Part shown: positions 17,888-24,625 of the stretch, in pieces
Layout: each line of letters opens with the position of its first letter
Numbering within the stretch: position 1 is the stretch's first letter
Source of the DNA: Halobacterium hubeiense
GTDB lineage: Archaea; Halobacteriota; Halobacteria; Halobacteriales; Halobacteriaceae
DNA: 64,000 nucleotides
Direction: 5' to 3'
Assembly: GCF_001488575.1 (NCBI RefSeq)
Contig: NZ_LN831302.1
Location: forward strand, 372,001 to 436,000
Notes under the pieces: generated by a model
Told to the model about the DNA's origin: nothing
The model's input: only the letters and a program-made list of their open reading frames with translations
The model's database searches: none
Program-made: the position numbers and the translations under genes

Positions 17888-18786
17888 AGTTCATCGAGGA
17901 GGTCGTCGTCGAGGAGTTCCTCCCTACCTTCCGCTCGCTGCTGGCGGCGGACCTCCGCGAGCGCGGGCTCACTCAACACGAGGTCGCGGACCTGCTCGGC
18001 GTCAGCCAGTCCGCGGTCTCGAAGTACGCCCACGGCGAGGTCACGGTCAACGACGCGGTCGCCGGCGACGAGCGCGTCCGCGAGACCGTCGAGCGCGTCG
18101 GCGAGGGACTCGCCAGCGGGGACATGTCGCAGGTGCAGGCGCTCGTCGAGGCGGAGGTGCTGATTCGGCGGCTGTCCGCGCGCGGCGACGTCGTCGCGGA
18201 CCTCCACGAGGCGGCGATGCCGGCGCTCGCGGAGTACGACGGCGACTTCCGCGTCCACGACCCCGAGAGCGAGGTGCGCGTCCGCGAGCGCGTGCTCTCG
18301 TCGGTGCGCCGCGGCGTCCGCATCCTCGAACACGCCAGCGGGTTCGCGACGCTCATCCCTGCGGTCGGCTCGAACCTCGTGGAGTGTACGCCCGACGCCG
18401 ACGGCGTCGAGGATGTCGCGGGCGTCCCCGGCCGGATTCTGGACGTGATGGGGCGCACGGAGATTCCCGCCGACCCCGAGTTCGGCGTCAGCGTCCACGT
18501 CGCGTCAGTCCTGTTGGCCGCCCGGGACGCCGGCAGCGACGCTCGCGCGTGCCTGAACGTCCACTACGACCCAGATATCGTCGAGGAACTGGAGTCGCTC
18601 GGCTACGAGGCCGTCGAGTTCGACCCGGAAGGAGAGGCTTCCGCGGACGCGCTCCGTCCCGTCGTCCGGGACCACCCGGAGGCGGACGTGCTCTACCAGA
18701 CCGGCGGCTTCGGCGTCGAGCCTATCGTCTACGTGCTCGCGGACAGCGCGCCGGCGGCCGCCGAGATGGCGCGCGAGCTACTGTGA
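17884..18786 (+). CDS. transcriptional regulator with HTH and ThiN domain
   Basis: 300 residues: an N-terminal helix-turn-helix ([23 protein letters not shown], about 29-51), a linker, then a ThiN-like domain (about 130-300) with [23 protein letters not shown] and [15 protein letters not shown]. ThiN binds or makes thiamine phosphate; fused to an HTH it acts as a thiamine-sensing repressor in archaea (ThiR). It overlaps dcd by four bases and converges on the next gene with a 9-base overlap. Confidence 0.85.
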
Positions 18787-19542
18787 GGGGGCGGTCGCCA
18801 GCCCCGCGGGGCCGCCGTCGAGTCGCGCGCGGACGCCGTCGCCGGCGCGGTCGAAGGCGGGGTCGGCGTCCGGCTGCACCGCCAGCACGGCGATTGCCGC
18901 GGGGAGCGTGACTGCGGCGTCGGCGACCCGGACCGCGGGGTCGAACCGCCAGCCGTCGACGGTCTCCGCGGGCGCCTCGACGAGGTTCGCGCCCGCGACC
19001 CTCGCGAACGCGTCGCCGACGGTGGACGCGTCCGCCGCGAAGTCCGCCCGGTGCGCGGCGTCCGCGAGGACGACCGCCTGCTCGCGGGCCGAGAGCTCGG
19101 CGTCGAGCGTGCGCGCCGTACACCGCAGCAGGACGACGCAGAGGTCGTCGGGGTCGGTGGTGGCTTCCGCGGCCGCGAAGTACGCGTCCAGAATCGTGCG
19201 CTCGGCGTCCTCGTGGCCGGCCGCGCTCAACGCCTCGAACACCGCGCCCGTGACGTCGTGGCAGGCGTCGGGCAGCGAGGGCGAGTCCGCCGGCGGCACG
19301 GGCTCGGTGCGCTCGTGGACGACGAGGTCGTAGTGGGGCGCTCGCGGGTCGTAGCGCTCCAGCGTCCGGCGGTACTCGCGGGCCAACTCGGCGGCCTCGC
19401 GGGCGGTCTCGCGGTCCGCGAACCATAGCCCGCCGACCGGGAACGGGCGCTCGCCGGTGCGCGCGCAGGCGACGTAGAAGCGCCCGTCGTCGCTGGCGAG
19501 GCCGTCGAGGCGCTCGCGCATCGTGCGGAGGTCGTCGCCCAT
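18778..19542 (-). CDS. conserved haloarchaeal protein downstream of cupredoxin lipoprotein
   Basis: 254 residues from the ATG 19542, which overlaps the TGA of the upstream lipoprotein gene, so the two form an operon. The N-terminus MGDDLRTMRERLDGLASDDGRFYVACARTGERPFPVGGLWF is soluble and looks DUF7551-like; the rest is Ala/Asp-rich helical. No catalytic motif is seen. Shared iron-box control with the upstream gene is probable. Confidence 0.7.
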   Translation of the reverse strand: MGDDLRTMRERLDGLASDDGRFYVACARTGERPFPVGGLWFADRETAREAAELAREYRRTLERYDPRAPHYDLVVHERTEPVPPADSPSLPDACHDVTGAVFEALSAAGHEDAERTILDAYFAAAEATTDPDDLCVVLLRCTARTLDAELSAREQAVVLADAAHRADFAADASTVGDAFARVAGANLVEAPAETVDGWRFDPAVRVADAAVTLPAAIAVLAVQPDADPAFDRAGDGVRARLDGGPAGLATAPSQ

Positions 19543-21971
19543 CACGATTCCTCCACGACGACCGTCCCGACCATGTCCAGCGTCTCGTGCGGGATGCAGT
19601 AGTAGCCGTGCTCGCCCGCGGTCTCGAACGTATGGACGTACGACTCGCCGGACGTCACCGCACCCTCCCCGTTCTCCCAGCCGCTCGCCGCGGCGTCCTG
19701 GCTCTCGAAGCCGCCGGACGCCCAGTAGGCGGCGTCGTCCGGGACGTCGTCCTCGTAGGCGGTCACGGTGTGGGGTTCGCCGCCCGCGTGCGTCCACGCG
19801 ACTTTGTCGCCGACCTGCACGGTGAGCTCCGCGGGCTCGTACGCCACCGCGGTCATGTCCACGACGTGGTCGGCGTCCTCGGGGACGCCGGAGACGACGT
19901 TCGGACCGCCCGAGAGCTCGGATTCCTCGCTCTCGCCGCTCCCCTCGCCGACCGGCGCCTGCTCGATGGCGCCGACGACCGCGAACTGCGCGCGCAGCGA
20001 CGCGTTCGCCACTGCGTCGACGCTCCCACCGCCGGATTCGAGCGCGCTCGCGTACTCGTCTAGCGCGGACTCGAAGGACTCGTAGGCGCCCTCGTCGGCG
20101 TCAGCCAGCAGGTCGTGGACGCGCGCGGTCTCGAAGGCTTCGTAGGCGTCGCTGACGACGCCCGCGGCCGCCGCGCCGAGTTCGCCGCCCGCCGCGGTGA
20201 CGACCGCGTCCGTCGCGGCAAGCGACTGCTCGAAGAACGACTGCGCGGCCGCGTACGCGTTCGCGTCGCCGCTGGCGGCGTCCTCCACGCTGACCAGCGC
20301 CTCTTCGAAGGCGTGGTAGGTGTCCTCGCTGGCGCCCTCCAGCGCCTCGTGGAAGCCGCCCGCGCCCGCCTCGAAGTGCGCCATCGCGTCGGACGCGACG
20401 GTCGCCGTGCGCTCGCTGTCGCCGGCGGCCGCCAGCGCCGCCGCGTCGAACGCCCGCGCGGACAGGTACGCCGACTCCGCGCCGGCGACGCGCGCCGTGC
20501 TCGCCGCCTGCGTCTCGAAGTCCAATAGCGCGCCGAGCGCGCCGTCCACGTGGTCGGCGACGGTATCCTCGCCGTTCCGCATCGCGTCCGGGAGCGCTTC
20601 GAGGTGGTCGTGCTCGAACGTCTCGTAGAGGCTCTCGCTGGTGGATTCGAGCGCCTCGTGGACGCCGAGCTCGTTCGCCTCGAAGCGCGCGAACAGGTCC
20701 TCGACGAGCGACGCCGCCTCGCCGTCCCCGCGCCGGTAGCGCTCGCGGGCGTCCGCGAGCCGCGCCCGGAAGAACCCGGCTTCCAGAACTGCGGCTTCCG
20801 TGCTCGTCGCCAGCGCCTCGACGCCCGCGACGAGGTTATCGTCCACCTGCGCGAGCGCGTCGGCGACTCCCGAGCCGTCCTGAATGGCGGTCTGGAGGTC
20901 GCGCACGCCGCCCTCGACCCCCTCGTAGGCGTCGTGGTCGGCTTCTTCGAGGGGCTCGTGGGCGGCCGCGCCCTCGAAGTGTTCGAGGACGTCGATGGCG
21001 GCCGTCGCCGCGGCCTCGGTCTGACCGGCGGCCGCGAGCCGCGCCGCGTCGTGGGTGCGGGCGCGGTACGCGGTGAGCGTCGCCGCGTGCGCGAACGACG
21101 CCGCCGGCCCACCGAGCCCCGCGACCGTCGCCGCGTCGTAGGCTCGGGACTGCACGCTCGCGAGGTGGCCCGCGCCCGCCACTCGCTCGCCGCTGACGGC
21201 GTACGCGCCCTCGACCGCCGCTGCCAGCGCTTCGTCCGCGGCGCTTTCGGCGTCCTCGGCGTCGCCGCGCTGGCCGGCAGAGAGCACGTCGCCCAGCGAG
21301 CCCTCGAAGCGCTCGTAGGCGTCGTCGGCGGTGCCTTCGAGCGCGTCGTGGGCGGCGGCGTCCTCGAAGTCCGTGAGCGCAGCGTTCGCCGTGACGCCGG
21401 CGTCCGCCGGCCGGTCGGCGGCCGCCAGCGCCGACGCGGTGGCCGCGCGGTCGCCGAACGCGAGCGCGTCGAGGGCGTTCGCGGGCTGTTCGCCGACGAG
21501 CTCGCGCTGGGCCGCCGCGAGGTGGTCGTCGGCGGTCCGCTGGTGGTCGCGGGCGGCGTCGGCGTCGCCGGCCGCCAGCGCCTCCTGTAAGCTGACGACG
21601 GCGCTCTCGAAGCCCTCGTAGTGCTCCGTGCTGGTGGCCTCCAGCTTCTCGTGGGCGCCGTACTCGCCGCTCGCGCTCTCGAAGTCCTCGAAGACACCCG
21701 CGACGGTGCGTTCGCCGAGGGCGTGCTCCTCCGCGAGCCCGAGCGCGGCGGCGTCTGCGAGCCGCGCCCGGTAGACGTTCCACTGTGCGGCGACGGCCGC
21801 GTTCACGCCGACGTCCCCGCCGGCGTTCTCGGTCGTTTCGGTGGCGGGCTCGGTCGTCGCGGGGTCGTCGGTCGACTGGTCGCTGTCGGTGCTATCGGCG
21901 TTACAGCCCGCGAGCCCGAGGGACGCGAGGGTGGCGCCAGTGGCTTTCAGGAACGTTCTTCGGTCGCGCAT
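19542..21971 (-). CDS. Tat-exported lipoprotein: six DUF5059-like repeats and a cupredoxin domain
   Basis: 809 residues. The N-terminus has a twin-arginine signal (RDRRTFLKATGATLASLGLAGC) with lipobox LAGC, Cys23 being the likely lipid anchor. A Thr/Asp linker follows. Six helical repeats each end in a FE-x(4-8)-H[ED]xL...Y..[FV]E motif, with His at 107, 208, 338, 438, 541 and 619; a YRAR/FRAR motif recurs near 67, 302 and 401. The C-terminal cupredoxin (about 705-809) has copper ligands His734 (EPHTVT), Cys792, His795 and Met800, as in halocyanin. An iron-box palindrome overlaps the promoter. It probably acts in redox or metal handling at the outer membrane face; the repeat function is unknown. 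Confidence 0.85.
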   Translation of the reverse strand: MRDRRTFLKATGATLASLGLAGCNADSTDSDQSTDDPATTEPATETTENAGGDVGVNAAVAAQWNVYRARLADAAALGLAEEHALGERTVAGVFEDFESASGEYGAHEKLEATSTEHYEGFESAVVSLQEALAAGDADAARDHQRTADDHLAAAQRELVGEQPANALDALAFGDRAATASALAAADRPADAGVTANAALTDFEDAAAHDALEGTADDAYERFEGSLGDVLSAGQRGDAEDAESAADEALAAAVEGAYAVSGERVAGAGHLASVQSRAYDAATVAGLGGPAASFAHAATLTAYRARTHDAARLAAAGQTEAAATAAIDVLEHFEGAAAHEPLEEADHDAYEGVEGGVRDLQTAIQDGSGVADALAQVDDNLVAGVEALATSTEAAVLEAGFFRARLADARERYRRGDGEAASLVEDLFARFEANELGVHEALESTSESLYETFEHDHLEALPDAMRNGEDTVADHVDGALGALLDFETQAASTARVAGAESAYLSARAFDAAALAAAGDSERTATVASDAMAHFEAGAGGFHEALEGASEDTYHAFEEALVSVEDAASGDANAYAAAQSFFEQSLAATDAVVTAAGGELGAAAAGVVSDAYEAFETARVHDLLADADEGAYESFESALDEYASALESGGGSVDAVANASLRAQFAVVGAIEQAPVGEGSGESEESELSGGPNVVSGVPEDADHVVDMTAVAYEPAELTVQVGDKVAWTHAGGEPHTVTAYEDDVPDDAAYWASGGFESQDAAASGWENGEGAVTSGESYVHTFETAGEHGYYCIPHETLDMVGTVVVEES

Positions 21972-21975
21972 ACGG

Positions 21976-21991
21976 TTTAGGCTAACCTAAA
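21976..21991. promoter_or_regulatory. DtxR/Idr-type iron box
   Basis: TTTAGGCTAACCTAAA is an inverted repeat (TTTAGG/CCTAAA) four bases before the lipoprotein start codon. It matches the core of the DtxR-family operator (TTAGGTTAGCCTAA read on the minus strand). Position over the likely transcription start suggests repression by iron-loaded regulator. Confidence 0.75.
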
Positions 21992-22027
21992 GAAGAAAAA
22001 AGCTACCGATTTTTCGGTCGGCCTAAA

Positions 22028-22771
22028 TCAATCGAGGTCGCCTTCTCGAATCCGCTTCTCCGCTGCTTCCAGCGCCGCCTCCCGGTCGAACCCCGCGACG
22101 ATTTCCTCCAGTTCCTTCCGGGAGGCGTCGCGGAGGTCGCGGGCGTGCTCGGTAATCGACGGGAGCGCGCGGATGATGTTGTCCACGACGGGGACAGCGG
22201 CGCTCTGCGCGGACCGCGACATCGGGTTCAGGTCGATTACGAGCTCGGTCTTGCCCATCTTGGCGAGGGCCTCCGCGCGGTCGCCGTCTTCGAGCGGGAC
22301 GAGCACCACGTCCGCGTCGTAGATACCGTCGCGGTCCACCTTCGCGCGCTCGTGTTCGAGGCCCGGAATCCGCGCGTCCGCCTCCAGCCCCTTCACGTCC
22401 TGTGCGCCGTGCTCGCGGAGGTGCTCGGCGATGGCTTCCATTCGCTCGGCGGTGCGGTTGAAGAGGTTCACCTCGACGTCTGCGCCCACCACTTCCGCGA
22501 GCGCGACGACCTCGCCGGGCACGAGCGCCGCGACGTTCCCGTTCACCGACAGCACCGGGTGCTCGGCGAGCAGGAGGTACGCGGCCGCGACGCGCTCGGC
22601 GTTGTCCGCTGACGGAATCGTCTCCTCGCCGAGCAAGTAGTCGAACGCCTCCCCGCGGCCCTGCGCGACCAGCCCCTGCTTCGACGTGATGCCCTTCTCC
22701 ACGCCCGCCTCGATGCGGTGGCGGGTCACCAGCGAGTCGTGGCGCGGGTGGTCGGCGGGAATCTCGGCCAT
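22028..22771 (-). CDS. 4-phosphopantoate--beta-alanine ligase (phosphopantothenate synthetase)
   Basis: 247 residues of the archaeal PPS family (COG1701). It joins 4-phosphopantoate to beta-alanine with ATP in CoA synthesis. Signatures are MAEIPADHPRHDSLVTRHRIEAGVEKGITSKQGLVAQGRGEAFDYLLGEET (split here by function: substrate and ATP contacts), SVNGNVAALVPGE, the NLFNRTAERM segment, and DLNPMSRSAQSA. Its partner pantoate kinase lies 110 bases upstream on the same strand. Confidence 0.92.
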   Translation of the reverse strand: MAEIPADHPRHDSLVTRHRIEAGVEKGITSKQGLVAQGRGEAFDYLLGEETIPSADNAERVAAAYLLLAEHPVLSVNGNVAALVPGEVVALAEVVGADVEVNLFNRTAERMEAIAEHLREHGAQDVKGLEADARIPGLEHERAKVDRDGIYDADVVLVPLEDGDRAEALAKMGKTELVIDLNPMSRSAQSAAVPVVDNIIRALPSITEHARDLRDASRKELEEIVAGFDREAALEAAEKRIREGDLD

Positions 22772-23718: not shown

Positions 23719-23807
23719 CCTCTCGGAGTCGGGGGTCGCGCGGATTAAGTGTTGCACTCTCGGCACGCGAACGTTCAAGTGTGTTTACGCCTAAGTACGA
23801 CGTATAC

Positions 23808-24110
23808 GTGCCCTCGATTAGCGCCCGCATCCCCGACGACGAGGAGGAAGCCCTCGCGGAGGTCGCCGACCTACTCGGCGAGGACAAGAGCGCCACCATC
23901 CGGAAAGCGCTCTCGGAGGGACTCCACGACCTCCGCGTGCGCGTCGCTGTCGAACGCTACCAGTCCGGCGACGTCTCCGTCAACGAGGCCGCCCGCATCG
24001 CGGACGTCAGCCTCGGCGAGTGGATGGAAATCGCGCGCGAACACAACCTCACCACTCAACTCTCGCCCGACGACCTCGAATCGGACGCCGACGCCGCGCT
24101 CGACGTATGA
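23808..24110 (+). CDS. UPF0175 family protein, likely antitoxin
   Basis: 100 residues from GTG 23808. It carries an RHH-like N-terminus (SISARIPDDEEEALAEVADLLGEDKSATIRKALSEGL) and the UPF0175 helix (VERYQSGDVSVNEAARIADVSLGEWMEIAREH). A GTG at 23781 would add nine residues. It overlaps the following DUF3368 gene by four bases (ATGA), the usual antitoxin-then-toxin arrangement. Confidence 0.85.
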   Translation: MPSISARIPDDEEEALAEVADLLGEDKSATIRKALSEGLHDLRVRVAVERYQSGDVSVNEAARIADVSLGEWMEIAREHNLTTQLSPDDLESDADAALDV

Positions 24111-24625
24111 GCGATGTCGTGCTCGTCGACGCGACCACGCTCATCGCGCTCGGGAGCGTCGGCCGCGTCGACCTCTTGGCGAACTTCGATGGCGACGTTC
24201 TGGTTCTGGAGACTGTCGTCGACGAGGTAACGACCGAGCCAGCGAGGACGAACGTCTCGACGTTCCTCGGCTCCCAGCAAGTCACCGACAGTGTTTCCGA
24301 GGAGGCCGTCGCGGACGCGCAGCGCCTGCTCGGTGACGAGTGCGTTCACGGTGACGTCGAACTCGTCGCTGGCGTGCGCTCCCACCACGCCGACGACCGT
24401 TCCGTCGCCGTCGTCTCCGACGACCGCCGCGTCCGTGCGGTCGCGGAGGGACTCGGCGCGACGGTCACCGGAACTGTCGGCGTCATCGTTCGCGCGGTTC
24501 ACGAGGGAATGGACCCGGAGAACGCCAAAGCGTTGGTTCGAGAAATCGACAGCCACGGCTTGCACATGACCGGGGAACTCCGCGAAAAAGCGTTCGAGTT
24601 AATCGACGACGCAGCCGGCGATTAG
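24107..24625 (+). CDS. DUF3368/PIN-like protein, likely toxin
   Basis: 172 residues starting MSDVVLVDATTLIALGSVGRVDLL, with the first Asp of a PIN-type acidic site. VSDDRRVRAVAEGLG gives the later acidic pair, and a C-terminal helix bundle follows. DUF3368 proteins are PIN-fold nuclease-like and paired with UPF0175 partners. RNase activity is likely for the family but not shown by this sequence. Translation is coupled to the partner. Confidence 0.82.
   Translation: MSDVVLVDATTLIALGSVGRVDLLANFDGDVLVLETVVDEVTTEPARTNVSTFLGSQQVTDSVSEEAVADAQRLLGDECVHGDVELVAGVRSHHADDRSVAVVSDDRRVRAVAEGLGATVTGTVGVIVRAVHEGMDPENAKALVREIDSHGLHMTGELREKAFELIDDAAGD

Follow-up and report, generated by a model that had tools for sequence, protein, structure and literature searches.

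Two iron boxes stand ahead of the gene for an 809-amino-acid lipoprotein in the window (the whole 64,000-nucleotide stretch of Halobacterium hubeiense DNA that was analysed), and the boxed site is genuine, well beyond what chance would give. We consider it likely that this paired DtxR-family operator puts a stand-alone unit in the iron regulon, and that the surface protein encoded there is EfeO-like by analogy. The features of the site are listed here in the order of the minus strand.

22028 to 22771, minus strand: upstream neighbour, 4-phosphopantoate--beta-alanine ligase (CoA synthesis), outside the system
22012 to 22027, no strand assigned: distal iron box, 36 bp further from the gene than the proximal one and imperfect, its 14-bp core deviating at one position
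21992 to 22011, minus strand: spacer between the boxes, putatively BRE/TATA-like from the composition of 74 aligned promoters
21976 to 21991, no strand assigned: proximal iron box (predicted operator), TTTAGGCTAACCTAAA, between the TATA-like element and the start codon
19542 to 21971, minus strand: 809-aa Tat lipoprotein, DUF5059 at residues 59-673 (six helical repeats) and a C-terminal cupredoxin at 704-807
18778 to 19545, minus strand: overlapping downstream gene with DUF7552 and DUF7551, its start overlapping the end of the lipoprotein gene

The paired boxes and their promoter

The DtxR-type iron-box consensus, which we take to be the palindrome TTAGGNNNNCCTAA, is matched exactly at 21977-21990. 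The proximal box that holds it ends 4 nt short of the lipoprotein start codon and covers the predicted transcription start. A preliminary description of this DNA had reported a DtxR-core match at 21976-21991, and the match stands at exactly that position: 100 dinucleotide-shuffled versions of the window yielded no match to the 16-mer TTTAGGCTAACCTAAA, even with up to three mismatches permitted (expected 0.00). The same description placed the box over the start region of the lipoprotein gene and over its downstream gene, and here it was mistaken. Counted from the ATG (21971, minus strand), the box occupies -20 to -5 and is wholly upstream of the coding sequence; the DUF7552/DUF7551 gene does overlap the lipoprotein gene, but at its far 3' end, 2.4 kb from the box. 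The description also missed the second box, beyond the TATA-like region, which reads TTTAGGCCGACCGAAA on the minus strand. At no more than one mismatch, the pattern TTAGGN4CCTAA occurs twice in the window, both times at this site, versus 0.10 occurrences expected.

The spacer contains a T-run (21996-22001) centred about 27 nt ahead of the lipoprotein ATG, and a TATA element some 27 nt before the ATG is where one is expected for a leaderless haloarchaeal transcript. A scan for bacterial sigma-70 promoters found none, a result that is irrelevant to archaea. We infer that a metal-loaded repressor binds here and represses; DtxR-type dimers would probably do so by covering the TATA region and the transcription start. 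When iron is plentiful, metal-loaded dimers of the Idr/SirR type would sit on the boxes that flank BRE/TATA and over the transcription start, and the bound dimers would keep TBP/TFB and RNA polymerase from assembling. When iron is scarce, the repressor would depart and a leaderless, or nearly leaderless, mRNA would be made.

Conservation of the boxes and the iron-box set of the genome

DUF5059 is present in 77 of 292 sampled Halobacteria genomes, and in 27 of 77 genera. The comparison set comprised 74 loci from 73 other genomes plus the window, 75 genes in all, with starts chosen by a script rule; three of the 77 genomes (G095, G145 and G189), whose genes are fragments or degenerate, are not in it. 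An exact box lies within 200 nt upstream in 69 of the 75 genes and a box with at most one mismatch in all 75, a count in which many rows come from few genera and rows of the same genus are not independent. Over the rest of the 74 loci, exact boxes number 30 per 920,395 positions and the reversed pattern 0, a background rate at which about 0.5 exact boxes would be expected in the 75 upstream windows. The comparison strongly supports what the preliminary description had proposed, an iron-type (DtxR-family) operator for the lipoprotein gene. Short palindromes do arise in AT-rich intergenic DNA, and two of the 100 window shuffles reached two matches to TTAGGN4CCTAA at one mismatch or less. Nevertheless, a chance origin of the box, whose probability we regard as negligible, is refuted by the shuffles, in which none of the full 16-mers was expected, and by its retention in every promoter of the family.

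Across DUF5059 promoters the start of the proximal box ranges from -17 to -22. A second box lies 33-37 bp further upstream in 64 of 74 aligned promoters (two mismatches allowed; L101 left out). It is missing at that spacing from L093, L095, L104, L107, L115, L124, L125, L126, L128 and L129, and L093, L095 and L104 have an alternative box near -140. In the 64 promoters with both, the boxes bracket the BRE/TATA-like region, with conserved CGAA/TT-rich sequence in the spacer. The half-sites TTAGG and CCTAA are retained and the four bases between them vary, a pattern that speaks for recognition by a protein. These features bear on another account, in which the inverted repeats belong to the upstream CoA-synthesis operon as a terminator or hairpin and are read by no regulator. 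At 22005-22022 a weak hairpin resembling a terminator, T-run included, is indeed scored (two such hairpins found, 0.9 expected in shuffles), but a hairpin would tolerate compensated changes, whereas the TTAGG/CCTAA sequence itself is kept in 75 genes; moreover, the CoA gene is present in just three of the other 74 loci (L062, L078 and L128) and the box is retained regardless. We regard this account as very improbable.

The gene at L101 (about 5120) appears to be frameshifted early in its coding region and its iron box is intact; its start was mis-picked by the script and, read from the DNA, the box is at -18. The gene at L119 contains an N run. A further exact box just past the DUF5059 stop was noted at L067:7329-7342 and at equivalent positions in the same genus (among L058-L076), where the next sizeable ORF encodes an HhH-GPD DNA-repair protein.

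There is no conserved gene neighbourhood around DUF5059: no family accompanies it in more than 19 of 73 clustered loci (L101 and the window left out), so the box travels with the DUF5059 gene. This clustering excluded ORFs that were short, basic or rich in Arg, a filter through which permeases could be lost. In Natrinema/Haloterrigena-type loci the DUF5059 gene stands behind genes for a FecCD permease and for Peripla_BP_2 lipoproteins, which are themselves boxed.

The genome of H. hubeiense itself (3.13 Mb, four contigs) contains 18 exact matches to TTAGGN4CCTAA, versus one for the reversed control pattern. The window box is one of the 18; the others are listed by contig (C1 or C2). Fourteen proteins adjacent to boxes were scanned for domains, with boxes between genes assigned by distance.

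C1:81743, C1:1953574, C2:101881, C2:311461 and the pair C2:315710/315746: Peripla_BP_2 lipoproteins, five genes with six boxes in all
C1:84164: FecCD permease
C1:85143: ABC ATPase
C1:1030314: SBP_bac_8 lipoprotein
C1:226660/226694: box pair, CARDB protein
C1:681538: CopD-like membrane protein
C1:1031532/1031561: box pair, RGP-like protein
C1:1146889: Gluconate_2-dh3 protein
C2:102861: HVO_A0261-type regulator
C2:316948: paralogue of the DUF7552/DUF7551 gene of the window, some 260 nt past the box

Nine of the 18 boxes thus stand ahead of parts of iron/siderophore-type ABC transporters (FecCD, ABC_tran, Peripla_BP_2, SBP_bac_8), and it is the same box, ahead of FecCD, ABC ATPase and substrate-binding genes, that further supports an iron-type operator at the lipoprotein gene. 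At least two DtxR-family proteins with both Fe_dep_repress and Fe_dep_repr_C are encoded in the genome, one of them also with FeoA; two further loci are clearly above the cut-off for the DNA-binding domain and one more is marginally above it. The site resembles haloarchaeal DtxR-family iron regulons, in which a palindromic box likewise stands at promoters of siderophore/iron-type ABC transporters and DtxR-family repressors are encoded, and differs from them in its target, a DUF5059-cupredoxin lipoprotein. The 'ferR' signal reportedly goes back to Leyn and Rodionov in 2015. The fhu genes are said to bear it in excerpts of PMC11349517, which give three regulators of this family for Hfx. volcanii, and an excerpt of PMC6978704 presents four DtxR regulators (Idr1, Idr2, SirR and TroR) as the known haloarchaeal iron network.

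One regulator of this kind raises the matter of the metal. SirR of Halobacterium sp. NRC-1 is reported in a portion of PMC3600143 to depend on Mn(II), so that the metal sensed could be manganese for one regulator, and the boxes might then be read by a Mn-sensing DtxR-family protein (SirR/TroR type) that places the gene in a manganese response. We hold this to be improbable: the transporter parts behind half of the boxes belong to siderophore/iron-type families (FecCD, Peripla_BP_2 and similar), and no known Mn-transporter family was matched among the 14 scanned box-neighbouring genes.

Three of the boxed genes deserve separate mention. The CopD-like (copper) membrane protein (L018:4578-5525, C1:681577-682524) has its exact box 39 nt upstream and adds another gene of copper type to the iron regulon; a box with at most one mismatch lies near the start in 8 of its 19 closest matches, own protein included. 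The CARDB-domain surface protein has two exact boxes 34 bp apart at L017:4661-4708 and at L133:11571-11618, and they enclose a TATA-like stretch just as the two boxes of the window site do. The start of the Gluconate_2-dh3 gene adjoins an iron box in two genera (L020:3890 and L118:11874), which suggests an iron-regulated dehydrogenase.

The lipoprotein and its comparison with EfeO and halocyanins

The preliminary description had called the product a cupredoxin lipoprotein, an identity confirmed by its Pfam domains (DUF5059 and Copper-bind, with no M75 match over the whole protein), its Tat/lipobox signal and its plastocyanin-like fold. Among the named relatives listed, the nearest is that of Halobacterium salinarum DSM 3754, with 62% identity over the protein. 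The AlphaFold2 model (mean pLDDT 89.2, pTM 0.64) presents, after a disordered leader, a long succession of helices and then a C-terminal beta domain, which superimposes on plastocyanin (2plt) with Z 15.1 and an rmsd of 1.0 over 91 residues. Taking H, C, H, M as the ligand pattern of type-1 copper, we find H734, C792, H795 and M800 invariant in 55 of 55 aligned proteins. The strict motif CxPHx4M is present in 67 of the 75 genes, and the misses include the frameshifted gene and the one with the N run. These conserved ligands suggest that the label of copper protein is apt.

The helical domain contains six copies of the motif FE...H...Y..[FVYI]E, versus a mean of 0.0005 and a maximum of 1 in 2,000 shuffles. 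In the 55 aligned proteins, residues E98, H107, E111, Y118 and E122 hardly vary, if at all, and the same holds for the equivalent positions of repeats 3 to 6; in four repeats the long helix before this set also has a conserved Asp (D73, D308, D407 and D509). Repeat 2 is degenerate and lacks the invariant ligands. Six loci encode a shorter form (about 500 aa), whose two aligned members correspond to repeats one and two plus the final repeat. Because the fold search with the full-length protein was filled by cupredoxins, residues 51-389 were folded alone (mean pLDDT 91.8). A search of the PDB with this model gave no significant match (none at E of 0.001 or below; best E 0.34), with an imelysin entry in eighth place (E 0.70) in a list of generic helical bundles, so that it is the conservation of residues alone that points to an iron-binding role for the domain. 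The similarity to 3u8v, a metal-binding protein of small size (Z 11.5, rmsd 2.0 over 83), was given no weight, since helical bundles commonly share arrangements to this degree, and middling VIA-align scores to assorted helical bundles were likewise not taken as evidence. The E/H/E/Y/E set of each repeat may well bind iron, and the cupredoxin may pass electrons to or from the iron bound there.

EfeO, of the ferrous-iron uptake system EfeUOB, combines a cupredoxin with a helical iron-binding domain. EfeO/EfeM and the DUF5059 protein share an extracytoplasmic location, a cupredoxin with an all-helical domain and conserved His, Glu, Tyr and Asp. The Site III ligands of EfeM, given as Tyr, His, Glu, Glu and Asp in an excerpt of PMC9174327, resemble the set conserved in the DUF5059 repeats. 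In contrast, the order of the domains in EfeO is reversed relative to the DUF5059 protein, and in place of the M75 motif HxxE the repeats have His and Glu four apart (for example H107/E111). Homology to EfeO was considered and finds no support in sequence profiles. No Peptidase_M75 domain turned up in residues 51-389, for which matches at E up to 10 comprised DUF5059 and an insignificant GrpE alone; HxxE is absent; the FTR1 permease (EfeU) is found in none of 284 Halobacteria genomes, own included, and M75 in none of the 276 Halobacteria genomes searched. The absence of M75 and FTR1, the different spacing of the motif and the reversed order of domains argue for analogy and not for membership in the family.

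The protein may accordingly be likened to EfeO as an analogous, not homologous, surface lipoprotein that binds iron and has a redox function. Tat export and the lipid anchor would place it outside the membrane, where the helical repeats would hold iron and the copper centre would exchange electrons with that iron; the lipoprotein would do at the surface what EfeO does in bacteria and supply uptake systems with iron. That the paired boxes are retained at most related genes of other species suggests a part for it in withstanding iron shortage. Against this best explanation counts the proteome of iron-starved H. volcanii, where the table of changes of at least 10-fold, as it stands in the excerpt of PMC11349517, has no halocyanin or DUF5059 protein.

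The main rival keeps the same operator and makes the cupredoxin a copper electron carrier that replaces iron electron-transfer proteins under iron shortage, with the repeats as a stalk or docking platform devoid of iron. The cupredoxin is indeed closest to plastocyanin; it shares with halocyanin/plastocyanin-type cupredoxins a Copper-bind match above the Pfam cut-off, the plastocyanin fold and the H/C/H/M ligands. Part of PMC8305020 describes halocyanin as the haloarchaeal one-electron carrier in place of cytochrome c, and in a portion of PMC9240420 the annotation of the DUF5059 protein from Hfx. mediterranei is halocyanin HcpG. Respiratory and iron proteins drop in iron-starved Hfx. volcanii, according to the same excerpt of PMC11349517. 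However, the lipoprotein scores below the NCBIfam cut-offs for halocyanin (TIGR03102; 32 versus 93.8 bits) and plastocyanin (59.2 versus 87.85), and it differs from both in the 620-residue helical domain in front. A domain of that size, with the E/H/E/Y/E set kept in each repeat, is needless for a simple carrier, and the neighbours in some species are FecCD permeases and siderophore-type binding lipoproteins, not oxidases. Such a replacement of iron proteins is possible but in our view doubtful.

The downstream gene and the wider setting

The preliminary description had also proposed an operon. The gene overlap is present in the window, and the DUF7552/DUF7551 gene is likely on the same transcript as the lipoprotein; the arrangement is less general than had been stated, as DUF7552/DUF7551 follows DUF5059 in only 9 of the 74 other loci. 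DUF7551 is matched in 163 of 284 genomes, and in 9 of the best 30 loci among these 163 matched genomes a box lies within 300 nt upstream of the gene, which thus looks iron-linked in part of its range. The boxed DUF7552 paralogue was noted at L023:9949-10226. The short frame directly behind its box stops after 30 codons, so that what separates box and paralogue would be a small gene or the remains of one.

The type of regulator, the box and the iron regulons of haloarchaea were already known. New here, as read from sequence comparison, are the bracket of two boxes, its near-universal conservation with DUF5059 and the ligand pattern of the repeats. No tie of DUF5059 or halocyanin to iron regulation appeared in the literature searched, and the main regulon papers lay outside it; the DUF5059 target may already stand in published regulon tables. 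These results tie DUF5059, a widespread archaeal family of unknown function, to iron physiology and offer a possible reason for a 'halocyanin' that tracks iron rather than copper. The two-box architecture is amenable to test in a tractable host, as Haloferax volcanii has DUF5059.

The site also raises the question of whether archaea evolved a copper-coupled surface iron system of their own. In yeast, copper supply is part of iron acquisition through Fet3/Ftr1. More tentatively, and with the chances rather against it, the DUF5059-cupredoxin lipoproteins might be an independently evolved counterpart of EfeO, with five or six similar iron sites per molecule coupled to a copper redox centre, without FTR1 or M75, and under a paired DtxR operator that brackets the TATA; together with the iron-boxed CopD-like protein, they would make copper supply a part of archaeal iron acquisition.

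Elsewhere in the window, at 23781-24625, a gene for a UPF0175 protein is followed by an overlapping ORF, possibly a toxin-antitoxin-like pair in which the overlapping ORF presumably resembles a PIN-type partner.
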